DNA of 47,835 nucleotides from Acidobacteria bacterium RIFCSPLOWO2_12_FULL_66_21. GTDB lineage: Bacteria > Acidobacteriota > Vicinamibacteria > Vicinamibacterales > 2-12-FULL-66-21. The stretch is from contig MELC01000066.1 in the NCBI GenBank assembly GCA_001767455.1, positions 5,190-53,024 on the forward strand, read 5' to 3'. Below the pieces are notes generated by a model that was not told the origin of the DNA, searched no databases, and worked only from the letters and a program-made list of their open reading frames with translations. Positions 15,765 through 38,842 of this stretch are shown here, piece by piece (the first letter of the stretch is position 1; each line of letters starts with the position of its first letter). The position numbers and the translations under genes are program-made.

Positions 15765-15773
15765 CAGAAGAAA

Positions 15774-15822
15774 CGTAGAACGTAGAAGGTAGAACGTAGA
15801 AGGCGGAAGGCTGGAACGCGGA
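15774..15822. repeat. Tandem 7-bp-period repeat
   Basis: Seven consecutive degenerate heptamers read CGTAGAA, CGTAGAA, GGTAGAA, CGTAGAA, GGCGGAA, GGCTGGA and ACGCGGA. They fill the gap between the desaturase stop and the kinase promoter. Confidence 0.8.
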
Positions 15823-16700: not shown

Positions 16701-16784
16701 ACGAGGCTCCTCGAGTAAAGAACCGGAGCCTCAAAATAGCAGGTCCCGCGCGCCCCGTTTGTAAGAGTTCTGTAAGGAACTCCC

Positions 16785-16880
16785 AGCTTCCAGCTCCCAG
16801 CTCCCAGCTCCCAGCTCCCAGCTTCCAGCTTCCAGCGAGTAAAAAGAAGCTGGAAACTGGAAGCTGGGAACTGGAAACTA
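16785..16880. repeat. Opposed heptamer arrays forming a long inverted repeat
   Basis: Seven AGCTTCC/AGCTCCC units (16785-16833) are followed by a short A-rich spacer. Five units of the complementary family then follow (GAAGCTG, GAAACTG, GAAGCTG, GGAACTG, GAAACTA) to 16880. The two arms can pair as a cruciform or RNA hairpin. The last unit contains the serC stop codon, so the structure may terminate the serine operon. Confidence 0.8.
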
Positions 16881-17972
16881 CCCGTTCTTTTTCTCGAACT
16901 CCTGCATGAAGGAAATGAGCGCCGCCACCCCCTCTTCGGGGAAGGCGTTGTAGATGGACGCCCGGAGGCCGCCCACCGACCGGTGGCCCTTGAGACCGTC
17001 GAGCCCGGCCGCGGTCGCTTCCTTCGCGAACTGCTTCTCCAGCTCTTCGCTGGGCAGGCGGAACGTGACGTTCATCCGAGAACGGCTGTCCGCGTGCGCG
17101 TGCGCGCGGTAGAAGCCCGTCCGATCGATCTCGCGGTAGAGCTTGCTCGCCTTGCGGATGTTCTGCCGCTCCATCGCCTCGAGCCCGCCGCGCTCGAGCA
17201 GCCAGGCGAGCACCAGGCGCATCACGTAGATCGGGAACACCGGCGGCGTGTTGTAGAGCGACTTGTTCTCCGCGTGCACCGCGTACTGCAGCATCGTCGG
17301 CAGCGTCGCGGGTGTCCGCTTCACCATGTCGTCGCGCAGGATCGCGAGCGTCACGCCGGCGGGCGCGAGGTTCTTCTGCGCGCCCGCGTAGATGGCGGCG
17401 TACCTGGAGACCTCAATCGGCCGGCTGCACATGTCCGACGACATGTCGGCGACGAGCGGGACGTTGCCGGCGTCCGGCACGTAATGCCACTCCGTCCCGT
17501 AGATCGTGTTGTTGGTGGTGTAGTGGACGTACGCCGCGTTCGGGTCCAGCTTCAGCTCGTCCTGCCGCGGCACCCGCGAGAACTTCTCCGACTCGGTCGT
17601 CGCGGCGATGTTCACGGCACCGACCCGCCTGGCCTCCTTCACCGCCTTCTGCGACCACACGCCGGTCACGATGTAGTCGGCCGCGCCGCCCGCGGGCAGC
17701 AGGTTCATCGCGATCATCGAGAACTGCAGGCTCGCGCCTCCCTGCAGGAACAGCACCTGGTAGCCCTCCGGAATGCCCGCGAGCTTCCGCAGATCCGCCT
17801 CGCAGCCCTGGATGATCTCGTCGAACGGCTTCGAGCGGTGGCTGATCTCGAGGACGGACATGCCGACGCCGGGCAGCGCGATGAGGTCGCGCTGCACCTG
17901 CTCCAGAACGGGAAGCGGCAGCACCGCGGGACCGGCGGCGAAGTTGAGAATCCGTTCGGTGGTCGCAGCCAT
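16878..17972 (-). CDS. serC: Phosphoserine aminotransferase
   Basis: The product is 364 residues, the usual SerC length. It has ILNFAAGPAVLPLPVLEQVQ at the N-terminus, FLQGGASLQFSMIAMNLL, TTNNTIYGTEWHYVPD, DMSSDMCSRPI and the PLP lysine in YAGAQKNLAPAGVTL. The C-terminus has GHRSVGGLRASIYNAFPEEGV. It transfers an amino group from glutamate to 3-phosphohydroxypyruvate in serine synthesis. The ATG at 17972 has AAGGAG upstream, overlapping the end of the serA intergenic gap (10 nt). The longer frame to 18146 reads through serA and is not real. Confidence 0.95.
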   Translation of the reverse strand: MAATTERILNFAAGPAVLPLPVLEQVQRDLIALPGVGMSVLEISHRSKPFDEIIQGCEADLRKLAGIPEGYQVLFLQGGASLQFSMIAMNLLPAGGAADYIVTGVWSQKAVKEARRVGAVNIAATTESEKFSRVPRQDELKLDPNAAYVHYTTNNTIYGTEWHYVPDAGNVPLVADMSSDMCSRPIEVSRYAAIYAGAQKNLAPAGVTLAILRDDMVKRTPATLPTMLQYAVHAENKSLYNTPPVFPIYVMRLVLAWLLERGGLEAMERQNIRKASKLYREIDRTGFYRAHAHADSRSRMNVTFRLPSEELEKQFAKEATAAGLDGLKGHRSVGGLRASIYNAFPEEGVAALISFMQEFEKKNG

Positions 17973-17982
17973 ATATCTCTCC

Positions 17983-19293
17983 TTACCAGGCGCTCTGGGA
18001 CTTCGCGAGTTGATACGACGAGGCCGAGGATCCCAGCGGCACCACGCTGATGTCGAGAATCTCGGGATTGCTGCCCCTGATCCGGCGCACGAGCGTGTCC
18101 GACGGCTCCCCTTCGACGTTGATGCGCGCGACCGCGGCCTGCGCACCGGTGAAGATGATGTTCTCGGTTTCCTGGATGTTCACGCGCGCGTCGCGCAGCA
18201 TGTCGAACACGCTCGCGAGCACGCCCGGCCGGTCGTGGTGGCGCACGACGATGACGTGCGTCGCCGGCGTGTGCCGCGACAGGTTCACGACGTTCGGGAC
18301 GCGGCCGGTGTCCATGAAGGTGCGGACGATGCGCACCGTCTCGGTCGCAATCGCTTCCTGCGCCTGGTTCGTGGAGGCGCCGATGTGATGCGTGCCGTAG
18401 ACGTTGGGCAGCTTCAGGATCGGGTCGCTGAAGTCCGCCTGCGCGCTCGCCGGCTCCTTCGCGTACACGTCGAGCGCGACGCGGAGGTTGCGCTCCTTCA
18501 CTGCGAGCGCGAGCGCGTCGTAGTCGACGATTTCACCGCGGGCCGTGTTGACGAGGAACGAGCCCGGCTTGAGGCGGCTCAGCACGTCGGCGTTCACCAG
18601 CTTGCGCGTGCGGTCGCTGAGGCCGACGTGGACGCTGAGGATGTCGGACTTCTCGGCGAGCTCCTCCGGCGTATCGCACACTTCCGCGAACGGCTCGACC
18701 GGGTATCCCGACGACGGACGAAGCCGGACGAGCAACGGCATGTCGATTGGCAGGCCCGAACGATCGACCTCGACACCCAACTCGCTCCAGATGGCGAGGT
18801 GCATGCCGAAGGCCTGCGCCCGCCGTGCCATTTCCTGGCCGACGTTGCCGAACCCCAGCACGCCCAGCGTGAGGCCGTACAGCCCGCGCGCCTTGGAGTA
18901 CTCCTTCTTGTCCCACTTGCCCGCACGCAGATCCGCGACGTTGTCGGGAATGCGCCGGTCCAGCGCGAGGATGAGGCCGAAGGCGAGCTCCGCCACCGCG
19001 ACCGAGTTCTTCCCCGGGCAGTTGGCGACGTAAATGCCGCGCGCCGACGCGGCGGTGATGTCGATGTTGTCGTACCCGGCCCCCGCGCGGACGACCAGCG
19101 ACAGATGCCCCGACTCGAGCATCGGCTCGGTCACTTTCGTACTCCGCACGATCAGCACGTCGGCGCCGGTCTCCTCGATCGCCTTTCTCAGCGACTCTTC
19201 CTTGAGATCGGGGTTGAAGATCACCTCGCAGCCGGTCGCCTTGAGACCATCGAGACCGGACCGCTCGAACTTATCCGCGATCAGCACTTTCAT
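17983..19293 (-). CDS. serA: D-3-phosphoglycerate dehydrogenase
   Basis: The product is 436 residues. It has the 2-hydroxyacid dehydrogenase core with LVVRAGAGYDNIDI, NCPGKNSVAVAELAFGLIL, nucleotide loop GVLGFGNVGQEMARRA, NTARGEIVDYDAL and the catalytic His in THHIGASTNQAQ. A C-terminal ACT domain (HVIVVRHHDRPGVLASVFDML) probably binds serine or another effector. It oxidises 3-phosphoglycerate in serine synthesis. A segment after FGMHLAIWS is longer than in typical SerA. The ATG at 19293 has GAGGG upstream; an ATG at 19308 overlaps the DUF1015 gene stop (ATGA) and is an alternative start. Confidence 0.93.
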   Translation of the reverse strand: MKVLIADKFERSGLDGLKATGCEVIFNPDLKEESLRKAIEETGADVLIVRSTKVTEPMLESGHLSLVVRAGAGYDNIDITAASARGIYVANCPGKNSVAVAELAFGLILALDRRIPDNVADLRAGKWDKKEYSKARGLYGLTLGVLGFGNVGQEMARRAQAFGMHLAIWSELGVEVDRSGLPIDMPLLVRLRPSSGYPVEPFAEVCDTPEELAEKSDILSVHVGLSDRTRKLVNADVLSRLKPGSFLVNTARGEIVDYDALALAVKERNLRVALDVYAKEPASAQADFSDPILKLPNVYGTHHIGASTNQAQEAIATETVRIVRTFMDTGRVPNVVNLSRHTPATHVIVVRHHDRPGVLASVFDMLRDARVNIQETENIIFTGAQAAVARINVEGEPSDTLVRRIRGSNPEILDISVVPLGSSASSYQLAKSQSAW

Positions 19294-19304
19294 GGGACGC
19301 ACCC

Positions 19305-20534
19305 TCATATCAAGTGGACGAGCAGGCCGTCGCGCAGCTTCGGCTCGAACCACGTGGATTTCGGCGGCATGATGCCGCCGCCGTCGGCGATCGTCATCAG
19401 GTCATCGACCGTGACGGGGAACATCGAGAAGGCGACCGCGGCCCTGCCGCCCGTCACCGCCCGCTCGAGCGCGGCGACGCCGCGCGCGCCGCCGACGAAA
19501 TCGATCCGCCTGTCCGAGCGGATGTCGCCGATGTTCAGCAGCCGCTCGAGCACGTGCCGCTGGAGAAGCGCGACGTCGAGGCCGCTCGCGCGCGAGCCGT
19601 CCTCGGGCGCGGCCCCGGAGATGTCAATCGTGTGCCACCGGCCATCGAGGAACATCGCGACTTCACCCTTGTGGCGCGGCGTGGCGGCCCCCTCGGTGAC
19701 CGGGAATTGCCCGCGAAGGGCCTCCAGGAATGCCGCGGGCGTGCGGCCGGCGAGATCCTTCACCGTCCGGTTGTACGGCAGGATCTGCATCTCGGTGTCC
19801 GGAAACGCGACCGCGATGAACGTGTTCGCGTCCGCGGCGCCGCCGCCCGAGGCGCTGCGCGACCGCAGCTCCGCGCGCGCCCGCGCCGCGCTGGCCGCGC
19901 GGTGGTGCCCATCCGCGATGTAGACGGCCGGAATCTCGCGGAACGCGTCCGACAGCGCCTGCGACTCGCCGGCGCCGGCGCGCCACACCGTGTGCCGGAT
20001 GCCGTCGCTCGACGTGAAGTCGTAGAGCGGGGGACACGAGGTCACCTGCCGCGACAGGCGGTCGATCGCGCCCGTCGATCGAAACGTGAGGAACACGACC
20101 CCGGTCTGCGCCCGCAGCTCGATGATGTGCCGCGTCCGATCGTCTTCCTTGTCCCGGCGCGTCCGCTCGTGCTTCCTGATGACGTCCGCCTCGTACTCGT
20201 CGACCGAAAAACAGGCCGCGATGCCCGTCTGCTCGTGGCCGCCCATGCGCAGCCGGTAGAAGTACAACGCAGGCGCCTCCTCGACGACGAGCGGCGCACG
20301 CCGTCGCAGGCCGTCGAGATTCTCGCGCGCCTTCTGGTACACGGATGCGGAGTACGGATCCGTGTCCGGCGGGAGATCGATCTCCGACCGCGTCACGTGA
20401 AGAAAACTCAGCGGATTTCCGGCTGCGAGCTGGCGGGCTTCCTCGGCGTTGACGACGTCGTACGGAACGGATGAAACGGCGGCCGCGCTCTGCGGCGCCG
20501 GCCGCAAGGCCCGGAAGGGATGTAATGAGGCCAT
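19305..20534 (-). CDS. DUF1015-family protein in the serine operon
   Basis: The product is 409 residues, full length for DUF1015. The N-terminus reads HPFRALRP and SSVPYDVVNAEEARQLAAGN with LSFLHVTRSEIDLP. The centre has the family hallmark YIADGHHRAASAARARAE, and the C-terminus has NIGDIRSDRRIDFVGG. It is the first gene of an operon with serA and serC; the family often sits beside these genes, which suggests a role in serine or phosphoserine metabolism. The biochemical function is not shown by the sequence. A -10 element lies 6 nt before its start. Confidence 0.88.
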   Translation of the reverse strand: MASLHPFRALRPAPQSAAAVSSVPYDVVNAEEARQLAAGNPLSFLHVTRSEIDLPPDTDPYSASVYQKARENLDGLRRRAPLVVEEAPALYFYRLRMGGHEQTGIAACFSVDEYEADVIRKHERTRRDKEDDRTRHIIELRAQTGVVFLTFRSTGAIDRLSRQVTSCPPLYDFTSSDGIRHTVWRAGAGESQALSDAFREIPAVYIADGHHRAASAARARAELRSRSASGGGAADANTFIAVAFPDTEMQILPYNRTVKDLAGRTPAAFLEALRGQFPVTEGAATPRHKGEVAMFLDGRWHTIDISGAAPEDGSRASGLDVALLQRHVLERLLNIGDIRSDRRIDFVGGARGVAALERAVTGGRAAVAFSMFPVTVDDLMTIADGGGIMPPKSTWFEPKLRDGLLVHLI

Positions 20535-22220: not shown

Positions 22221-23360
22221 ATGGCGAAATACAGGATTGCCTGGCTGCCAGGCGACGGAATCGGGGTGGACGTCCTCGAGGCCGCCCGCATGGTGCTCGA
22301 TCGCGTCGAGCTCGATGCCGACTACATCGACGGCGACATCGGGTGGGAGTTCTGGCGGCGCGAAGGCGACGCGTTCCCGCCGCGGACGATCACGCTCCTG
22401 CGCAGCGTCGACGCGGCCATGTTCGGCGCCATCACGTCGAAGCCGATGAAAGCCGCGGAAGCGGAACTCGACCCGTCGCTTCGCGGCACGGGCCTCGTCT
22501 ATCGCTCTCCGATCGTCCGGATGCGCCAGTTGTTCGACCTGTATGTGTCGCTGCGCCCCTGCAAGGCGTACCCGGGCAACCCGCTCAATTACCGCGAGGG
22601 CATCGACCTCGTCGTCTTCCGCGAGAACACCGAGGACCTGTACGCCGGCGTGGAATTCAGTCCGGTCCCGGGCGAGCTCGCCGCGGTGCTCGCGGCCACA
22701 TCGAAGCCGTTTGCGCATTTCTCCATGCTTGGCGGCACGGAGTACGCGGTGTCGTGCAAGGTGAACACGCGCCGCGGCTCCGAGCGGATCGCGCGCGCCG
22801 CGTTCGACTTCGCCCGCGCGAAGGGCCGCAAGAAGGTCACCATCGTCCACAAGGCGAACGTCGTGCGCGCCACGGATGGTCTCTTCCTCGAGACCGCGTA
22901 CCAGGTCTCGAAGGGCTACCCGGAGATACAGGCCGACGACGCGAACATCGACGCGATGACGATGTGGCTGTTGAAGAACCCGTTCAACTACGACGTGCTG
23001 GTGGCGCCGAACCTGTACGGCGACATCATCTCGGATCTGTGCGCGCAGATGGTCGGAGGCCTGGGCTTCGCCTGCTCGGGCAACGTCGGAGACGGGCTCG
23101 CGGTGTTCGAGCCCACGCACGGATCGGCCCCGAAGTATGCGGGGCAGTACAAGGTCAACCCCCTGGCGACGATTCTCTCGGTGAAGATGCTGCTCGAGTG
23201 GCTCGGCGAGCAGGACAAGGCGGCGCGCGTCGAGCGCGCCGTGGCCGGGGTCATTGCCGAGGGCCGCGTCCGCACGTACGACATGGGAGGGACGGCATCG
23301 ACCCTCCAGATGGCTGAAGCGGTGGCGATGCGGATCGGCACGGTGGCGGCAGGCGCATGA
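22221..23360 (+). CDS. Isocitrate/isopropylmalate dehydrogenase-family enzyme (possible methylmalate dehydrogenase)
   Basis: The product is 379 residues of the NAD(P)-dependent beta-decarboxylating dehydrogenase family. It has WLPGDGIGVDVLEAA, LRPCKAYPGNP, VFRENTEDLYAGVEF, catalytic Lys in IVHKANVVRATDG, metal-binding Asps in LVAPNLYGDIISDL, and FEPTHGSAPKYAGQ. The specificity helix reads RSPIVRMRQLFDLYVSLRP, keeping an ICDH-like Ser but with Ile where E. coli ICDH has Asn. It is therefore neither a clear LeuB nor a clear ICDH. Neighbouring LeuCD-like and CoA-linked genes suggest (2R,3S)-3-methylmalate or a related 2-alkylmalate as substrate, by inference. Ribosome site GGAGG; its stop overlaps the next start (ATGA). 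Confidence 0.85.
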   Translation: MAKYRIAWLPGDGIGVDVLEAARMVLDRVELDADYIDGDIGWEFWRREGDAFPPRTITLLRSVDAAMFGAITSKPMKAAEAELDPSLRGTGLVYRSPIVRMRQLFDLYVSLRPCKAYPGNPLNYREGIDLVVFRENTEDLYAGVEFSPVPGELAAVLAATSKPFAHFSMLGGTEYAVSCKVNTRRGSERIARAAFDFARAKGRKKVTIVHKANVVRATDGLFLETAYQVSKGYPEIQADDANIDAMTMWLLKNPFNYDVLVAPNLYGDIISDLCAQMVGGLGFACSGNVGDGLAVFEPTHGSAPKYAGQYKVNPLATILSVKMLLEWLGEQDKAARVERAVAGVIAEGRVRTYDMGGTASTLQMAEAVAMRIGTVAAGA

Positions 23361-24271
23361 GCGACGTATTTCTGCACGAAGTCGGCATGCGTGACGGACT
23401 CCAGGTGGAGGCCGGCGTGGTGCCGACCGCGCGGAAGATCGCGTGGATCGGGCGCCTGCTCGGTTCGGGTGTCGATCTGATTCAGGCGGGCTCGTTCGTG
23501 AACCCGAAGCTCGTGCCGCAGATGGCGGACACGGACGAGATGTTCAGGCACTTCGCCGCCATGGGGCGGCCGCGCGGGCCGCGGCTGTCCGCGCTCGTCC
23601 TCAACGAGCGGGGCCTCGAACGCGGGCTCGCGTGCGGCGCGGACTACTTCTGCATGGGCGTGTCGGCGAGCGAGACGCACAGCCGCAAGAACACCGGGAT
23701 GGGAACCGACGAGGCAATCGAGCGCATGCTCGCGACCGGCCGGCGCGCGCGCGAGGCCGGCGCCACGGTGCAGATGTCGGTGCAATCGGCGTTCGGCTGC
23801 GGGTACGAGGGAAGGGTTCCTGAGACGCGGGTCCTGAAGATCGTGGACCGGTTCGTGACCGAAGGGTTCCACGCGATCAGCCTCGCCGACACCGCCGGAC
23901 ACGCGGTGCCGCCGCAGGTGGCGCGGCTGTTTCGCGACATCCACGCGATCGATCCGGGCATCGTCTGCGCCTGTCATTTTCACGATACCTACGGGCTGGC
24001 GATGGTGAACGCGTGGGCGGCGCTCGACGCGGGCGTCACGTATTTCGAGTCGGCGTTCGCGGGGCTCGGCGGATGCCCCTTCACCGCGCTCGCCGGAGGC
24101 AACCTGTGCACCGAGGACTTCGTGCATCTCCTGCAGCGCACGGGACGCCGCCCGGATGTCTCGCTGGAGGTCATCAACGAGGTGGCCGCGGAGGCCGAGC
24201 GGTTCTTTCGCCGCGCGCTGCCTGGCGTCGTTCACCGGACCGGAGTCATTCCATCCGGGCGCACGTCATGA
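23357..24271 (+). CDS. HMG-CoA-lyase-family enzyme (possible citramalyl-CoA lyase)
   Basis: The product is 304 residues of the DRE-TIM metallolyase superfamily, HMG-CoA lyase branch. It has EVGMRDGLQVEAG (catalytic Arg-Asp), SETHSRKN, SAFGCGYEG, LADTAGHAVPP, metal-binding HFHDTYG, the mobile-loop Cys in GLGGCPF, and GGNLCTEDFVHLL. All key residues of HMG-CoA lyase are present. In Chloroflexus an enzyme of this type acts as (R)-citramalyl-CoA lyase next to a family III CoA-transferase; the same pairing occurs here. The gene overlaps both neighbours by 4 nt (ATGA), so it is translated as part of the operon. Leucine degradation (true HMG-CoA lyase) is the main alternative. Confidence 0.85.
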   Translation: MSDVFLHEVGMRDGLQVEAGVVPTARKIAWIGRLLGSGVDLIQAGSFVNPKLVPQMADTDEMFRHFAAMGRPRGPRLSALVLNERGLERGLACGADYFCMGVSASETHSRKNTGMGTDEAIERMLATGRRAREAGATVQMSVQSAFGCGYEGRVPETRVLKIVDRFVTEGFHAISLADTAGHAVPPQVARLFRDIHAIDPGIVCACHFHDTYGLAMVNAWAALDAGVTYFESAFAGLGGCPFTALAGGNLCTEDFVHLLQRTGRRPDVSLEVINEVAAEAERFFRRALPGVVHRTGVIPSGRTS

Positions 24272-25461
24272 AGCTGCTGTCCGGTGTCCGCGTCCTCGAC
24301 ATGACCAACGTCCTCGCGGGGCCGTTCGCGACGGCCCATCTCGCGCTGCTCGGCGCCGACGTCATCAAGATTGAGAATCCCGACGGCGGCGACCTCGCGC
24401 GCAGGCTCGGCGCGGTGCCGGCACTGAATGCCGAGCTGATGGGCACGAGCTTCCTGGCCCAGAACGCGAACAAGCGATCGCTGACGCTGAACCTGAAGGT
24501 CGAGGAAGGCCGCGCGGTGTTCACGGCGCTCGCGCGTCGGGCGGACGTGCTCGTGGAGAACTTCCGGCCGGGGGTGATGGACCGTCTCGGCGTGCCGTGG
24601 AGCGCGCTTCGCGAGTTGAATCCGCGGCTGGTCTATTGCGCGATCTCGGGGTTCGGACAGACCGGGCCCGACGCCGACAAACCTGCCTACGACCAGATCA
24701 TCCAGGGGCTGAGCGGCGTGATGGCGATCAACGGCGACGCGCGCCTCAACCCGCTGCGATGCGGATTCCCGGTGTGCGACACGGTCGGCGGCCTGAACGC
24801 CGCGTTCGCGATCATGGCGGCGCTCTACCATCGCGAGCGCACGGGCGAAGGGCAGTTCATCGACGTCGCGCTGCTGGATTCGGTCCTGCCGCTCCTCGGC
24901 TGGGTCGCGGCCAACTGGCTGATTGGCGGGCATCCGCCCGAGTTGATGGGCAACGACAATTTCACCGCGGCGCCCTCCGGCACGTTCGCGACGCGCGACG
25001 GGCACATCAACATCGCGGCCAACCAGCAGCAGCAATGGGAGGCTCTGGCCGACGCGCTGGACCTGCCCGAACTGAAGACCGACCCGCGGTTCGAGAAGCG
25101 GGACGCTCGCAAGGCGAACCGCCACGCGCTGACGCCGCTGCTGGAGGCGAAGCTGAAGGAGCACATCACCGATCACTGGGTCTGCGTGCTCAACCGCCTG
25201 GGCGTCCCGGCCGGCGCGATTCGCACCCTCGAAGAGGCGCTCGCATGCGAGCAGGTCGAACACCGGGGAACGTTGCAGACGGTCGCGGCGGAGGGGATCG
25301 GGGTGCTGAAGCTGTTCGCGCTCACAGCCCAGTTCGAGAAAACGCCCGGCAAGGTCACCTCGCCGCCGCCGCGGCTTGGGGCGGACACCGACGCGATATT
25401 GATGGAGCTCGGGTACAACGCGGACGACATTGCCGCGCTGCGATCAAAAGGAGCGGTGTAG
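24268..25461 (+). CDS. CaiB/BaiF-type family III CoA-transferase
   Basis: The product is 397 residues. LLSGVRVLDMTNVLAGPFATAHLALLGADVIKIENPDGGD is the standard N-terminal nucleotide-like fold (split here as LLSGVRVLDM and LGADVIKIENP). Asp171 in FPVCDTVGG aligns with the catalytic Asp of formyl-CoA transferase. HRERTGEGQFIDVALLDS follows. Family members move CoA between dicarboxylic acids, including succinyl-CoA:citramalate and mesaconate/itaconate transfers. Overlap with the lyase gene (ATGA) argues that it makes or uses the lyase substrate. The longer upstream frame to 24013 is a shadow of the lyase gene. Confidence 0.87.
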   Translation: MKLLSGVRVLDMTNVLAGPFATAHLALLGADVIKIENPDGGDLARRLGAVPALNAELMGTSFLAQNANKRSLTLNLKVEEGRAVFTALARRADVLVENFRPGVMDRLGVPWSALRELNPRLVYCAISGFGQTGPDADKPAYDQIIQGLSGVMAINGDARLNPLRCGFPVCDTVGGLNAAFAIMAALYHRERTGEGQFIDVALLDSVLPLLGWVAANWLIGGHPPELMGNDNFTAAPSGTFATRDGHINIAANQQQQWEALADALDLPELKTDPRFEKRDARKANRHALTPLLEAKLKEHITDHWVCVLNRLGVPAGAIRTLEEALACEQVEHRGTLQTVAAEGIGVLKLFALTAQFEKTPGKVTSPPPRLGADTDAILMELGYNADDIAALRSKGAV

Positions 25462-25466
25462 GTTTC

Positions 25467-25501
25467 AGCTGGAAGCTGGAAGCTGGTAACTGGAGACTGA
25501 T
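25467..25501. repeat. Heptamer array upstream of the LeuC-like gene
   Basis: Five units read AGCTGGA, AGCTGGA, AGCTGGT, AACTGGA and GACTGAT, in the 40-nt gap before the ATG at 25502. The fourth unit supplies GGAG at a usable distance, so the repeat appears to provide the ribosome binding site. Confidence 0.75.
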
Positions 25502-26788
25502 ATGTCCGGCATGACGATCACGCAGAAGATCCTGGCGCGCGCGACCGGCCGGGCGTCCGTCGCCGTCGGGGACATCGTCGAGCCCGCGGTCGATCTCGCC
25601 ATGTCGCACGAGAACGCCGCCCTGGTGATGAACCAGTTCGAGGAGATCTTCAAGGGCACGTCCCTGACGCCGACCGTCTGGGATCCGTCGAAGATCGCGA
25701 TCGTGTTCGATCATCGTGTGCCGGCGGAAAGCTCCAAGACGGCGACCAACCAGAAGAAGGTGCGCGAGTTCGTCCGCGCGCAGCGCATCGCGAGGTTCCA
25801 TGACGTGCGCGGCGACGAAGGCGGCATCTGCCACCAGGTCCTCGCTGAAAGCGGGTACGACCGCCCCGGATCCGTCATCGTGGGCACCGACAGCCATACG
25901 ACCACGCACGGCGCGCTCGGGGCGTTCGCCTTCGGCATCGGCGCGACCGAGATGGCCGCCGTGTGGGCCCTGGGCCGCGTGCTCAACGTCGAAGTGCCCG
26001 CGACCATCAAGGTGGTGGTGAGCGGCGATCTGGCGCCGTGGGTCGGACCGAAGGACATCATCCTCAGCCTGATCGGGCGGCTCACCGCGGAGGGGGCGAA
26101 CTTCCGCGTCATCGAATTCCACGGCGACACGATCGAGTGGATGAACACGTCGGGGCGGCTCGTGCTCTGCAACATGGCGGTCGAGGCGGGCGCGACCTCG
26201 GGGATCGTGCCGGCCGACGACGAGACGGTGCGGTTCCTCAGGAGTGAAGCCGCCGTCACCGGCGAGCTGGATCTCGTCTGCGCCGATCCCGGCGCCGAGT
26301 ACGAGGAGGTCGTCGAGATCAACGCCGCGACGCTCGCGCCGCAGGTGGCCTGTCCTCACTCCGTGGATCACGTGCAGCCGGTGACGGCCGTCGAGGGGCG
26401 GCGCATCCATCAGATCGTCATCGGCTCCTGCACCAACGGACGCCTCGACGACCTCGAGACCGCCGCGCGCATCCTGAGGGGACGGCGGGTCTCGCGTGAC
26501 GTGCGGATGCTCGTCTTCCCCGCGTCGTGGCGCGTGTACCGCGAAGCGATGGAACGGGGCTACCTCGCGGATCTCGTGGAGGCGGGCGCGGTCGTGATGA
26601 ATCCGGGCTGCGGGTGCTGCCTCGGCATCCACCAGGGAGCGCTCGGCGACGGAGAGGTCGCGCTTTCGACGACGAACCGGAACTTCAAGGGACGGATGGG
26701 GAATCCGAACGCCGAAGTGTACCTGTGCTCGCCCGCGGTCGCGGCCGCGAGCGCGCTCACGGGCACGATCTCGGATCCTCGATACTAA
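25502..26788 (+). CDS. LeuC/homoaconitase-like dehydratase large subunit
   Basis: The product is 428 residues, the size of the short archaeal-type 3-isopropylmalate dehydratase and homoaconitase large subunit. MTITQKILARA, FDHRVPAESSKTA, GICHQVL, GTDSHTTTHGALGAFAFGIG and the three cluster cysteines (one in GSCTNGR near residue 308, two in NPGCGCC near residue 368) show an intact [4Fe-4S] site. With the small subunit at 26852 it would isomerise a 2-alkylmalate through an unsaturated diacid. In this operon the likely reaction is citramalate to citraconate to 3-methylmalate. LeuCD in leucine synthesis is the alternative. Confidence 0.88.
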   Translation: MSGMTITQKILARATGRASVAVGDIVEPAVDLAMSHENAALVMNQFEEIFKGTSLTPTVWDPSKIAIVFDHRVPAESSKTATNQKKVREFVRAQRIARFHDVRGDEGGICHQVLAESGYDRPGSVIVGTDSHTTTHGALGAFAFGIGATEMAAVWALGRVLNVEVPATIKVVVSGDLAPWVGPKDIILSLIGRLTAEGANFRVIEFHGDTIEWMNTSGRLVLCNMAVEAGATSGIVPADDETVRFLRSEAAVTGELDLVCADPGAEYEEVVEINAATLAPQVACPHSVDHVQPVTAVEGRRIHQIVIGSCTNGRLDDLETAARILRGRRVSRDVRMLVFPASWRVYREAMERGYLADLVEAGAVVMNPGCGCCLGIHQGALGDGEVALSTTNRNFKGRMGNPNAEVYLCSPAVAAASALTGTISDPRY

Positions 26789-26791
26789 TTC

Positions 26792-26812
26792 GTTGCTCGC
26801 AGCTCGCGGCTC
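26792..26812. repeat. Short heptamer array
   Basis: Three units read GTTGCTC, GCAGCTC and GCGGCTC between the large and small dehydratase subunit genes. The complementary strand matches the GAGCTGC/GAGCGGC units near 37.4 kb. Confidence 0.6.
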
Positions 26813-26851
26813 GTGTGAATCACGGGCGGCAGCAAGGACTCGGAGGCATCG

Positions 26852-27355
26852 ATGAGTCGCGTGGTTCTGGTTCTCGGCGATGACGTCTCGACGGATGCGA
26901 TCTTCCCCGGACGCTTCATGGCGACGGTACTGCCGGCCGAGACGCCGCAGTTCGCCTTCGCGGACCTGGCGGACTTCAACAAGGGCGTCAGGGACAAGAC
27001 CATCACGCCTGGCAGCGCGATCGTGGCGGGGCACAATTTCGGATGCGGGTCCTCGCGCGAGCAGGCCGCTTCGTGCCTGAAGGGACCGGACCTGACGATT
27101 GTCGCGCGCGGGTTTGCGCGCATCTTTCTTCAGAACGCGAGCAATCTGGGCCTGCGCACGATCATCTGTCCGGAGATCGAAGCGAGCGAAGGGGACGAGA
27201 TCGAGGCGACGGCGGACGAGATCGTCAACGTCACGACCGGGCGGCGCTGCCGGGTGCTGCCGCTGCCGTCGGCGCGCCAGGCGATCGTGGACGCGGGCGG
27301 CCTCGTCGCCTATGCGCGCGAGCTCCTGATCGCGGAGCGCACTGTCACGCTGTAA
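26852..27355 (+). CDS. LeuD/homoaconitase-like dehydratase small subunit
   Basis: The product is 167 residues, the archaeal-type LeuD size. It has LVLGDDVSTDAIFPGRF, IVAGHNFGCGSSREQAASCL, FARIFLQNASNLGLRTII and VNVTTGRRCRVLPLP. The substrate loop that reads YLxT or similar in characterised isopropylmalate and homoaconitate isomerases reads FMAT here, so the side chain accepted may differ. The start has GGAGG 6 nt upstream. It is the last gene of the 22.2-27.4 kb cluster and presumably pairs with the large subunit upstream. Confidence 0.88.
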   Translation: MSRVVLVLGDDVSTDAIFPGRFMATVLPAETPQFAFADLADFNKGVRDKTITPGSAIVAGHNFGCGSSREQAASCLKGPDLTIVARGFARIFLQNASNLGLRTIICPEIEASEGDEIEATADEIVNVTTGRRCRVLPLPSARQAIVDAGGLVAYARELLIAERTVTL

Positions 27356-35978: not shown

Positions 35979-37301
35979 CTAACGGCGCCCGATCGCGAAC
36001 AAGTGCCTCTCTCCGCGAATGTAGATGCGCCCGTTGGCGATCGCCAGTGAGGACATCACCGGTTCGTCGATGGAGTTCGTGCGGACGATGGAGGGCTCCG
36101 GGCCGGTCTTCAGCAGAAATGTGCTGCCGTCCTCGCTGGTGACGGCGATGTAGCCGCCGTACGCGACCGGCGAGCTCGTATACCGCGCCGGAGCGGGCGG
36201 CCGCACGCCCTCGAACCTGACCGCGCCGGTTGTCGCGTCAAGACATGTGACGACGCCGGTGTCGGTGAAGAGATACAGGTCGTCGCCGTAGAGAATGTTC
36301 GAGATGACGTAGCCGGTGCCCTTGCCGTACTGCCAGGCGATGCGGCTGCCGGGATCGACGTCGCCCGGGCGGATCGCGATGATGCGCTTGGCGGGGAAAC
36401 CGGCGGTCACGATCACCAGACCCTTGCCGGCGATCGGCGTATGGATCGCGTTGCTCTCGACCCCTTTGGTGCGCCACAGTTCCTTGCCGGTCCGCGGATC
36501 GTACGCGATGATGAACTGGCTGCCGTTCGTCACCAGCTCGATGCGGCCGCCGCCGTCGACGAGCACCGGCGTTCCCCAGCTGATCTCGACGTCCCGCTTC
36601 GTCCTCCAGACCTCCCGCCCGGACCGCTTGTCGAATGCCACGACGAGCGAATGGTCGCCGTTGTCCTCGTCGCGCTGGATGATGACCAGGTTCTCGAAGA
36701 GCACGGGCGACGTACCGGTCCCGAGGCCGAGCGTGGGAAATCTCTCGACCACCTTCCACTGGAGCGTGCCCGCCAAGTCGTAGGCGTAGAGACCTTCGGG
36801 GCCGAAGTACGCGTAGACCATCTTCCCGTCGGTCGCGGCCGTCGGCGCCGCGAAGCTGCTGCGCTTGTGACGCGCGTCGTACACGGCGCCGTCGTACGCG
36901 GTCCGCTCCCACACGATCCGGCCGCTCGCCTCGTCGAGCGCCAGCACTTTCAGGGTCTGCCGGCGATCGCCCGAGATGCTGTCCGGGTGCACCCAGGGCT
37001 TGCCTCCCTGCAGGTGCACGGGAGGCTCGGCTCCGGCGACCACGTTGCCTTCAATCGCCGCGGTGACGAAGATGCGGTTGCCCCACACGATCGGCGACGA
37101 ATGCCCGGAAGGCACCTCCGTTTTCCATGCGACGTTCCGGTCGGACGCCCAGTCGGTCGGGAGCTGCTTCTCGATGGAGATGCCCCGGCTGCCCGGGCCT
37201 CGCCACTGCGGCCAGTTCTCGGCCGCGCTCACCACAGCGCCGCACGCGAGCAGCCATGCGAGCCCCGAACCGCGAGCCACGAGCCACGAGCCACGAGCCA
37301 C
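35979..37301 (-). CDS. Secreted PQQ-type beta-propeller protein
   Basis: The product is 440 residues. The signal peptide hydrophobic core is GLAWLLACGAVVSA, followed by ENWPQWRGPGSRG and propeller blades such as GKELWRTKGVESNAIH and VTCLDATTGAVRFEG. The family (PQQ_2/BamB-like) is usually secreted and acts as a binding scaffold or a dehydrogenase-like protein; no catalytic motif is visible. The start is a GTG inside a heptamer repeat, giving an N-terminal MARGSWL-VARGSGL peptide; GTG at 37280 is an alternative. It faces the PQQ gene at 37331 with only 29 nt between start codons. Confidence 0.85.
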   Translation of the reverse strand: MARGSWLVARGSGLAWLLACGAVVSAAENWPQWRGPGSRGISIEKQLPTDWASDRNVAWKTEVPSGHSSPIVWGNRIFVTAAIEGNVVAGAEPPVHLQGGKPWVHPDSISGDRRQTLKVLALDEASGRIVWERTAYDGAVYDARHKRSSFAAPTAATDGKMVYAYFGPEGLYAYDLAGTLQWKVVERFPTLGLGTGTSPVLFENLVIIQRDEDNGDHSLVVAFDKRSGREVWRTKRDVEISWGTPVLVDGGGRIELVTNGSQFIIAYDPRTGKELWRTKGVESNAIHTPIAGKGLVIVTAGFPAKRIIAIRPGDVDPGSRIAWQYGKGTGYVISNILYGDDLYLFTDTGVVTCLDATTGAVRFEGVRPPAPARYTSSPVAYGGYIAVTSEDGSTFLLKTGPEPSIVRTNSIDEPVMSSLAIANGRIYIRGERHLFAIGRR

Positions 37302-37308
37302 GAGAGAG
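37267..37308. repeat. Heptamer array containing a start codon
   Basis: Six units (GAACCGC, four GAGCCAC, GAGAGAG) run through the first residues of the minus-strand PQQ gene. Read on the minus strand, three heptamers form a 21-bp, 7-residue translated repeat. Confidence 0.75.
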
Positions 37309-37330: not shown

Positions 37331-38842
37331 ATGCGCAAACATCTCCCGGTGATCATCGCGGCCGTGGGCGTCGCGGCGGCCACGCTGTCCGAACCACGAG
37401 CGGCGGGCCACGAGCCACGAGCCACGGACTGCGAGCGGCGAGCTGCGAGCTGCGAGGGAGGCATGTCGGACCCCGGCACCGGCGACTGGCCGATGTGGGG
37501 AGGCGCGCCCGATCGGAACATGGTCTCCGGCATGAAAGGGCTGCCGACCTCGTGGGACCTGAGCGCGAAGCGCAACGTGAAGTGGATCGCGGACCTGGGG
37601 TCGACGGCGTACGGCAATCCCGTCGTGGCGGGCGGGATGGTGCTCGTCGGCACGAACAACGATGCGCCGAGGGATCCCGCCGTCAAGGGCGACAAGGGCA
37701 TCCTGATGGCGTTCAGGGAGTCCGACGGCGAGTTCATGTGGCAATCCGTCCACGACAAGCTGCCGGCGGCCGGGGCGCACGACTGGCCCTTGCAGGGCAT
37801 CTGCTCCTCCCCGCTCGTCGAGGACGGCGTCGTCTACTACACGTCCAATCGCGGCGAGTTGATGGCGGTCGATCTCGACGGATTCCGCGACGGCGCGAAC
37901 GACGGCCTGGTGAAGAACGAAACGGCCACGAAGCCGACCGACGCCGACGTCATCTGGCGCGTCGACATGATGGCGGCGGTCGGCGTGCGCCAGCACAACA
38001 TGGCCAACGGCTCGCCGGTCGGCTACGGCGACCTCGTGTTCGTGAACACGTCGAACGGCCGCGACGAGAACGACGAGAAGATCCCCGCGCCCAACGCGCC
38101 GTCGCTCGTCGCCGTGGACAAGAAGACCGGCACGCTCGCCTGGCAGGACAACTCGGCCGGCGATCGCATTCTGCACGGACAGTGGTCGTCGCCCGCCGTC
38201 GGCAAGGTCGGAGACACCGTGCAGGTCGCTCTTGGAGAAGGCGATGGGTGGGTGCGCGGCTTTGACGCGCTGACGGGCCGGAAGCTGTGGGAGTTCGACC
38301 TCAATCCGAAGGACGCCGTCTGGCCGAAGACCCGCAACGAAGTCATCAGCACGCCGGTGTTCCACGAAGGGGTGGTCTACATCGCCAGCGGGCAGGATCC
38401 CGAGCACGGCGAAGGCGTCGGCCACCTCTATGCGATCGATGCGACCAAGCGCGGGGACATCACCGACACCGGCCGCCTCTGGCATTTCGACAAGATCCGG
38501 CGCTCCATGTCCACCGCCGCGGTGTACGACGGCCTCGTGTTCGCGGCCGACTTCAGCGGCTTCCTGCACGCGCTCGACGCGCGGACGGGAAAGCCGTTAT
38601 GGACGCATGACATGTTCGCCGCGGTCTGGGGTTCCCCGATCGTCATCGACGGGAAGGTCTACCTCGGGGACGAGGACGGCGACGTCGCCGTGCTCGCTGC
38701 CGCGCGCATCCTGAAGGTGATCGCCGAGAACACCATGGGCAGCGCCGTGTACTCCACCGCGGTGCCCGCGCACGGCACGCTCTTCATCCTCAACCGGAAT
38801 CAGCTCGTCGCGCTCGCCGAACAGCCGGGCGCCGGCAAGTAG
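37331..38842 (+). CDS. Secreted PQQ-type beta-propeller protein with repeat-encoded linker
   Basis: The product is 503 residues. The signal peptide is MRKHLPVIIAAVGVAAATLS. Residues 21-43 are encoded by a heptamer DNA repeat (EPRAAGHEPRATDCERRAAS). The propeller then begins GTGDWPMWGGAPDRNMVSG and has blades GVVYYTSNRGELMAVDLDGF and GLVFAADFSGFLHALDARTG. Several blades carry the W-docking consensus. It may bind a redox cofactor or act as a scaffold in the envelope. Its TAG is followed directly by the ATG of the next propeller gene, so the two are coupled. An upstream frame to 37127 lies in the divergent gene and is not used. Confidence 0.85.
   Translation: MRKHLPVIIAAVGVAAATLSEPRAAGHEPRATDCERRAASCEGGMSDPGTGDWPMWGGAPDRNMVSGMKGLPTSWDLSAKRNVKWIADLGSTAYGNPVVAGGMVLVGTNNDAPRDPAVKGDKGILMAFRESDGEFMWQSVHDKLPAAGAHDWPLQGICSSPLVEDGVVYYTSNRGELMAVDLDGFRDGANDGLVKNETATKPTDADVIWRVDMMAAVGVRQHNMANGSPVGYGDLVFVNTSNGRDENDEKIPAPNAPSLVAVDKKTGTLAWQDNSAGDRILHGQWSSPAVGKVGDTVQVALGEGDGWVRGFDALTGRKLWEFDLNPKDAVWPKTRNEVISTPVFHEGVVYIASGQDPEHGEGVGHLYAIDATKRGDITDTGRLWHFDKIRRSMSTAAVYDGLVFAADFSGFLHALDARTGKPLWTHDMFAAVWGSPIVIDGKVYLGDEDGDVAVLAAARILKVIAENTMGSAVYSTAVPAHGTLFILNRNQLVALAEQPGAGK
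37391..37460. repeat. Ten-unit heptamer array inside a coding region
   Basis: Units read GAACCAC, GAGCGGC, GGGCCAC, GAGCCAC, GAGCCAC, GGACTGC, GAGCGGC, GAGCTGC, GAGCTGC and GAGGGAG. The 70-bp array lies between the signal peptide and mature domain codons of the PQQ gene. Confidence 0.8.

Follow-up and report, generated by a model that had tools for sequence, protein, structure and literature searches.

The 47,835-nucleotide stretch of DNA that we analyzed, referred to here as the window, was taken from contig MELC01000066.1 (positions 5,190 to 53,024) of Acidobacteria bacterium RIFCSPLOWO2_12_FULL_66_21 (assembly GCA_001767455.1). It contained a cassette of five genes, which we designated dh, ly, ct, lc, and ld (Table 1). 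An earlier reading of the window, referred to here as the original prediction, held that the five genes could form a coenzyme A (CoA)-dependent citramalate pathway. All five open reading frames (ORFs) were present, and the proteins belonged to the families named in that prediction, with Pfam scores above the gathering score in each case. As had been predicted, the first three genes were joined by ATGA overlaps, at positions 23357-23360 (dh-ly) and 24268-24271 (ly-ct), but the first gene on the DNA was the dehydrogenase gene and not the lyase gene. Gaps of 40 bases and 63 bases separated ct from lc and lc from ld, respectively. No LeuA- or CimA-like synthase was apparent among the further listed ORFs between the five genes, in agreement with the original prediction, and a promoter scan did not find a sigma-70-like site.

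Table 1. Genes of the five-gene cassette (positions in the window; the length of ct was counted from the ATG at 24268, and the listed ORF opened upstream at 24013)
Gene	Position	Strand	Length	Assignment and features
dh	22221..23360	+	379 aa	Beta-decarboxylating dehydrogenase, isocitrate/isopropylmalate/homoisocitrate family
ly	23357..24271	+	304 aa	HMG-CoA-lyase-family lyase; ATGA overlap with dh
ct	24268..25461	+	397 aa	Family III (CaiB/BaiF) CoA-transferase; ATGA overlap with ly
lc	25502..26788	+	428 aa	LeuC/HacA-type [4Fe-4S] dehydratase large subunit
ld	26852..27355	+	167 aa	LeuD/HacB-type small subunit; recognition loop GRFMATVLPAET

The five genes were a real, conserved module. Our sample consisted of 396 Acidobacteriota genomes drawn from the larger phylum, and 64 of them, including the source genome, had a match to ly at E values of 1e-60 or lower. 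Orthologues of ly with at least 53% identity were present in 55 genomes (about one in seven); the next value was 47%, and genomes with a match at or above 53% were defined as carriers. Loci were fetched from 36 of the 54 other carriers. All five genes stood together in 27 of these loci (in L079, a contig end cut ld), with the order lc-ld-dh-ly-ct in three and dh-ly-ct-lc-ld in the rest. The other nine loci (in G264, G203, G043, G374, G356, G005, G164, G156, and G021) contained ly-ct with some of the partners not nearby, and one of the nine (L071) stopped at a contig end. A search for the missing partners covered G264, G203, G043, G374, and G356, and a cassette-type dh was found elsewhere in all five genomes searched (52 to 77% identity, with that of G356 the least alike). 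Specifically, ly-ct stood alone in G264 and G203, with lc-ld-dh or dh-lc-ld grouped elsewhere, and lc-ld was apart from dh in G043 and still with ly-ct in G356; in G374, the only trace of lc-ld found was an 80-residue frame that matched at 25 bits. Among the named contigs, which may overlap with the sampled genomes, L017 and L019 contained all five genes and L018 (3.4 kb) contained ld-ly-ct; L019 was labelled Gemmatimonadetes, and its ct was interrupted by unknown bases. Among plasmid relatives, the best place in each record had less than 60% identity. Alignment A3 was made without L067 and L102.

When the nine loci from a single genus were set aside, no family of neighboring genes recurred in more than three loci (ORFs of at least 120 amino acids, with cassette genes and overlapping ORFs excluded). 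We therefore considered the five genes to be the unit, and conserved neighbors were discarded as a clue to function.

Subfamily cut-offs in an NCBIfam scan were reached by ly, lc, and ld, and equivalog cut-offs were reached by none of the five proteins. In the case of ly, the scores were 112.9 bits for PF00682 (HMGL-like) and 254.5 bits for the subfamily model NF004283 (cut-off of 246), the latter being no proof of substrate. An AlphaFold model of ly, which was built on four sequences and had a mean predicted local distance difference test score of 76, resembled solved 3-hydroxy-3-methylglutaryl-CoA (HMG-CoA) lyases with Z scores of 31.7 to 33.2, as in the comparison with 1ydo (Z score of 33.2, root mean square deviation of 2.5, and 288 aligned residues). 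The family residues Arg12, Asp13, His207, His209, Asn249, and Glu253 were found in 40 of 40 module lyases and Cys240 was found in 39 of 40. The module lyases grouped in one clade of their own when a tree was built that included ten comparators. Two positions stood out. Position 43 was Gln in all 40 module lyases and Glu, Gln, or Asp in seven, two, and one of the comparators, respectively. Position 139, which presumably corresponds to Arg165 of human HMG-CoA lyase, was also Gln in all 40; it was Arg in the source genome's own L002, in L119 (whose gene adjoined an HMG-CoA reductase gene), and in L113. Alignments placed Arg at the equivalent position of the human and Bacillus subtilis HMG-CoA lyases and Asn in 6nds. 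The latter, a lyase from this family with a solved structure and no such Arg, matched the ly model with a Z score of 32.1, and its title names a complex with CoA and 3-methylmalate.

The tree comparison suggested in the original prediction thus yielded a separate clade with Gln in place of the HMG-CoA lyase Arg, but this Arg was not universal in annotated HMG-CoA lyases; seven of the ten comparators, L117 included, were without it. Judged from these residues, ly seems not to be an HMG-CoA lyase of the typical kind, and we propose that it may be a (R)-citramalyl-CoA (or other 2-hydroxyacyl-CoA) lyase. A role as the HMG-CoA lyase of leucine breakdown was rejected, as the source genome had a better, true-looking HMG-CoA lyase (L002; 431.5 bits versus a cut-off of 246) and ly was without the Arg.

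The dehydrogenase dh scored 299.9 bits with PF00180 (Iso_dh). Its best NCBIfam model was AksF2_Meth (344.7 bits versus a cut-off of 540), and it stayed below the homoisocitrate dehydrogenase equivalog cut-off, the LeuB model TIGR00169 (197 versus 353.2, with 471.5 for the genome's own LeuB, L006), and the isocitrate dehydrogenase equivalogs (at best 287.8 versus 510). Both an SPIV motif (residues 96-99) and a KY motif (residues 305-306) were present in all 34 fetched orthologues with more than 50% identity. In the numbering of Escherichia coli isocitrate dehydrogenase, KY presumably matches the cofactor residues K344/Y345, and dh is probably NADP dependent. The Ile of SPIV presumably corresponds to Asn115 of the same enzyme, a replacement pointing to a small alkyl substituent on the substrate. 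A structure comparison placed isocitrate, homoisocitrate, and isopropylmalate enzymes all at Z scores of 42.5 to 46.6 among the 50 matches listed and therefore did not choose a substrate.

The large dehydratase subunit, lc, scored 332.6 bits with PF00330 (Aconitase) and exceeded the cut-offs of the LeuC/HacA superfamily model NF001614 (549.3 versus 385), two related models, and the homoaconitase family model TIGR01343 (512.3 versus 385.7). It did not reach that of bacterial LeuC TIGR00170 (241.6 versus 560), for which the genome's own LeuC, L011, scored 622.8. The small subunit, ld, scored 41.5 bits with Aconitase_C and slightly exceeded the LeuD/DmdB small-subunit cut-off (TIGR02087; 111.8 versus 108.95), and its nearest solved chain was 3vba, the small subunit of an isopropylmalate/citramalate isomerase (E value of 6e-29). 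An excerpt of PMC7308503 states that substrate preference is determined by the small subunit, through its recognition region. In ld, this loop read GR[FY]MATVLPxET in 35 of 35 orthologues, and its counterparts were YLVY in 3vba and YLRT in the homoaconitase chain 2pkp. The Ala found where 2pkp has Arg is a further feature pointing to a small alkyl group. As for ct, it scored 414.2 bits with PF02515 (CoA_transf_3; gathering score of 23.3), and its best NCBIfam model was succinate-glutarate CoA-transferase (304.9 versus a cut-off of 750). Taken together, these sequence features lean toward a small alkyl substituent and hence toward citramalate, which gives this substrate moderate support.

The genome from which the window came was a draft of 6.48 Mb in 91 contigs that was estimated to be 100% complete, and it contained five genes each of the HMGL, Iso_dh, and aconitase types (a single aconitase-type gene matched in two pieces). 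The search for leuA/cimA, ilvA, leuB, and leuCD that the original prediction had recommended located leuA, leuB, leuC, and, beside leuC, a leuD-like gene identified by eye and alignment on contig C42 (L097). The scores were 597.9 versus 532 for leuA (with one of several models), 471.5 versus 353 for leuB, and 622.8 versus 560 for leuC. The search also located a threonine-ammonia-lyase-like protein, L051, that was barely over its cut-off (382 versus 378.75), and it found no CimA at E values of 1e-60 or lower. Because the leuABC and leuD-like genes were on a separate contig, the window genes were an additional set and not the only leucine-synthesis copies in the genome, a possibility that the original prediction had raised. 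Two further dehydrogenases were an NAD-isocitrate-dehydrogenase-like protein (L007; 440.8 versus 432.4) and an NADP-isocitrate dehydrogenase (L010; 673 versus 490). In addition, a 402-amino-acid homocitrate-synthase/LeuA-like protein on C5 (L004), a second LeuC-LeuD-like pair on C31 (L015/L016), and a further dehydrogenase on C64 (L008) were scattered in the genome and may be components of a third set for 2-oxoacid elongation. HMGL matches as strong as L004 (about 147 to 174 bits) recurred in carriers without a stronger one.

The CoA-dependent elongation without a synthase that the original prediction had outlined was borne out in its general type: the enzyme types corresponded to the route step for step, and the five-gene module was conserved. 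A CoA-dependent elongation of the form 2-oxoacid + acetyl-CoA to next 2-oxoacid + CO2 is therefore well supported. In the route that we propose, ly would condense a 2-oxoacid (most likely pyruvate) with acetyl-CoA to form (R)-citramalyl-CoA, and ct would move the CoA to another acid, with succinate the likely acceptor, and free (R)-citramalate. LeuCD (lc and ld) would then convert (R)-citramalate to 3-methylmalate, and dh would oxidize and decarboxylate the latter to 2-oxobutyrate. The thioester would be passed on rather than hydrolyzed as it is by citramalate synthase, and the final decarboxylation would pull the sequence forward. In this organism, the 2-oxobutyrate would most likely become propionyl-CoA (and, via methylmalonyl-CoA, succinyl-CoA) or enter another use of 2-oxobutyrate.

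We tentatively favor the reading that the five proteins form one such elongation cassette, with pyruvate most likely converted to 2-oxobutyrate and then to propionyl-CoA or another use; the substrate, direction, CoA acceptor, and product fate in this reading are all putative. The broader idea that the cassette provides an anaplerotic or propionyl-CoA-forming bypass from acetyl-CoA and pyruvate across Acidobacteriota, with the thioester saved on succinate and independently of isoleucine synthesis, is possible but doubtful. Neighboring genes bear on the fate of the product. In G354 and G308, which belong to one genus, 2-oxoacid:ferredoxin oxidoreductase genes were located upstream of the cassette in the same orientation, and a single small ORF separated them from it (G308 was cut by a contig end). 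The alpha subunit in G354 scored 571 versus 482.75, and the beta subunit was just under its cut-off (257.5 versus 261.9). Related oxidoreductase genes were near the cassette in G101, on the opposite strand. A 2-oxoacid oxidoreductase of this type would convert 2-oxobutyrate to propionyl-CoA.

Several observations weighed against this pyruvate-based reading. No residue or genome comparison fixed pyruvate as the substrate. Oxidoreductase genes were near the cassette in just three loci among those listed, and 2-oxoglutarate or another 2-oxoacid could be the substrate of the encoded enzyme. The CoA-transferase reached no NCBIfam equivalog cut-off. The Gln at position 43 of the lyase was shared with comparators L115 and L117, and L117, which came from a carboxylase/acyl-CoA dehydrogenase cluster, likewise had no Arg at position 139, so the missing Arg was a suggestive mark only. 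Finally, the SPIV motif of dh also occurred in the fungal homoisocitrate dehydrogenase 3ty3, and the solved dehydrogenases nearest to dh by sequence were homoisocitrate dehydrogenases.

The last two points would fit the same chemistry on 2-oxoglutarate, a CoA-dependent homocitrate route that would proceed through homocitryl-CoA, homocitrate, and homoisocitrate to 2-oxoadipate. The lc score above the TIGR01343 cut-off and the proximity of ct to succinate-glutarate CoA-transferase are also consistent with such a route, but the homoisocitrate dehydrogenase and HacA equivalog cut-offs were not reached and the ld loop was without the Arg of 2pkp. Furthermore, a lysA-like ORF (named by eye) lay beside the cassette in L017, which suggests a diaminopimelate route to lysine there. 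We regard the homocitrate route as unlikely.

Oxaloacetate as the substrate, with citryl-CoA, citrate, and isocitrate leading to 2-oxoglutarate in a CoA-dependent bypass of citrate synthase or its reverse, seemed distinctly unlikely. Aconitase and Iso_dh genes were searched for in 18 chosen carriers and HMGL genes in 17. The cassette of G083 held its only Iso_dh and only aconitase-family gene in these family searches, and the sole Iso_dh in G264 and G356 was of the cassette type, as would be expected of such a bypass. However, 15 of the 18 carriers had at least one further Iso_dh-family gene, and the source genome had L007 and L010, which scored over or among the isocitrate dehydrogenase models, as well as further aconitase-family genes. 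In addition, the Ile of SPIV replaced the residue that we take to be Asn115 of isocitrate dehydrogenase in every one of the 34 orthologues.

We gave a similarly low rating to a role in lengthening 2-oxoisovalerate or a different branched or aromatic 2-oxoacid, which would supply leucine or fatty-acid primers. The kinship to LeuB, LeuC, and LeuD and the hydrophobic side chains that dh has at its specificity positions would suit this role, but the source genome also kept the leuA, leuB, leuC, and leuD-like genes described above. An HMGL match of more than 300 bits, as expected for LeuA, was present in 5 of the 17 searched carriers, and a sixth (G097) had a match of 239.7 bits; the other 11 had no such match, so a branched substrate is possible there.

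Catabolism of citraconate, itaconate, or 3-hydroxy-3-methylglutarate by the cassette, in which the lyase would release acetyl-CoA and pyruvate or acetoacetate, was improbable. A Roseomonas plasmid did carry HMGL, CaiB, and LeuCD genes alongside genes for a tripartite tricarboxylate transporter, but the three clusters of this kind that were viewed had transporters and no annotated dh-family dehydrogenase, whereas the cassette had a dehydrogenase and no recurrent neighbor. The itaconate or HMG degradation that the original prediction had offered as an alternative would leave the dehydrogenase unexplained.

The original prediction had also inferred a route to isoleucine. In this reading, the cassette would make 2-oxobutyrate, and IlvB, IlvC, IlvD, and IlvE would complete the pathway. 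We searched for IlvA, CimA, ketol-acid reductoisomerase (ilvC; PF01450), and dihydroxyacid dehydratase (ilvD) in 80 genomes, namely, the 55 carriers and 25 genomes chosen from the 332 that ly did not match. For IlvA, matches at E values of 1e-80 or lower were counted, and CimA (TIGR00977) was searched at 1e-60 or lower. In the 91-contig source genome, ketol-acid reductoisomerase had no match and no candidate, and ilvD was not over the cut-off (the best TIGR00110 score was 378.8 versus 618.15). These two results, together with the presence of the threonine-ammonia-lyase-like L051, left service to isoleucine unsupported in the source organism. As the searches did not detect the later isoleucine enzymes in this genome, the product more likely goes elsewhere. 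The genome kept leuABC and the leuD-like gene without these two enzymes; its leucine may perhaps be made from imported valine, or the assembly may have a gap. An excerpt of PMC8245765 mentions a known inability to make branched-chain amino acids in Chloracidobacterium, a member of the same phylum.

Both ilvC and ilvD were found in 24 of the 55 carriers and neither in 30, and one carrier (G164) had dihydroxyacid dehydratase only. The corresponding numbers for the 25 non-carriers were 11 with both and 14 with neither. An association of the cassette with loss of the two genes (30/55 versus 14/25 with neither) was rejected (Fisher p = 1.0). G087, a single contig that was estimated to be 100% complete, kept the cassette without ilvC and ilvD, and it had no IlvA or CimA at the above thresholds and no HMGL match of LeuA strength (two matches of 156 and 134.5 bits). 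The cassette could supply 2-oxobutyrate for isoleucine in G027 and G053 (both estimated to be 100% complete) and in G284, which all had ilvC, ilvD, and an HMGL match of LeuA strength (310 to 314 bits) without IlvA at 1e-80 or CimA over the cut-off. This gap did not single out the cassette, however, because two of the 25 non-carriers (G010 and G115) likewise had ilvC and ilvD without IlvA or CimA. With an IlvA-type match or CimA in 21 of the 24 ilvC-positive carriers, and with the source genome and 29 other carriers of the 55 lacking ilvC and ilvD over the cut-off, the isoleucine role was very improbable, and it was not supported either as the general role of the cassette or, by the known route, as its role here.

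A few features of the window lay outside the cassette genes. ORFs that resembled serC, serA, and DUF1015 (named by eye) were located just upstream of the cassette at 16878-20534 on the minus strand. Tandem arrays with a 7-base period were present at 15772-15801, 16780-16836, 16846-16879, 25467-25494, 37259-37304, and 37390-37456, one of them between ct and lc; their units differed (AACGTAG, CTCCCAG, GAAACTG, AGCTGGA, CGAGCCA, and CTGCGAG).

The chemistry proposed for the cassette is not new, because an excerpt of PMC8307300 already describes how (R)-citramalyl-CoA lyase and a CoA-transferase can lead indirectly from acetyl-CoA and pyruvate to (R)-citramalate; the excerpt also refers to pathways that proceed via (R)-citramalate to isoleucine and to propionyl-CoA. 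We found no mention of the five-gene cassette, of its distribution across Acidobacteriota, or of its lack of dependence on ilvC and ilvD in the titles and abstract openings of literature on citramalyl-CoA and HMG-CoA lyases, citramalate, and branched-chain amino acids in Acidobacteria. If the proposed route is true, elongation with a lyase and a CoA-transferase in place of the synthase would save energy. In 30 of the 55 carriers, the known route does not allow the cassette to contribute to isoleucine, which poses a specific question about the flow of carbon through central metabolism.

The cassette can be compared with several known systems. It resembles the threonine-independent CimA-LeuCD-LeuB pathway in its proposed intermediates and product ((R)-citramalate, 3-methylmalate, and 2-oxobutyrate), but it has a lyase and a transferase instead of a synthase, and the source genome had no ilvC or ilvD over the cut-off. 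The 2-oxoacid elongations of methanogens and Thermus (Aks, LysT/U, and homoisocitrate dehydrogenase) are similar in that dh was nearest to AksF2_Meth and lc exceeded subfamily cut-offs that cover homoaconitase; they differ in using a homocitrate-type synthase, and the cassette proteins reached no equivalog cut-off. To our knowledge, leucine-, citramalate-, and homocitrate-type 2-oxoacid elongations all begin with a synthase that hydrolyzes acetyl-CoA. Proteobacterial HMGL-CaiB(-LeuCD) clusters (L112, L115, and L116) share the adjacent lyase and transferase genes and, in L112, LeuCD, but these clusters have tripartite tricarboxylate transporter genes, no annotated dh-family dehydrogenase, and lyases of another clade. 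The L112 cluster, on the Roseomonas plasmid (positions 793-7092), contained LeuC, LeuD, an oxaloacetate-decarboxylase-like gene, HMGL, a CoA-transferase, and transporters, and is probably a dicarboxylate catabolic cluster. The citramalyl-CoA lyase of Chloroflexus is kin to HMG-CoA lyase, and its citramalate CoA-transferase belongs to family III. The pair EC 4.1.3.46 and EC 2.8.3.20 is thus like the cassette in combining an HMG-CoA-lyase-type lyase with a family III transferase, a likeness at the level of enzyme type, and the cassette differs from this pair in adding LeuCD and a dehydrogenase.

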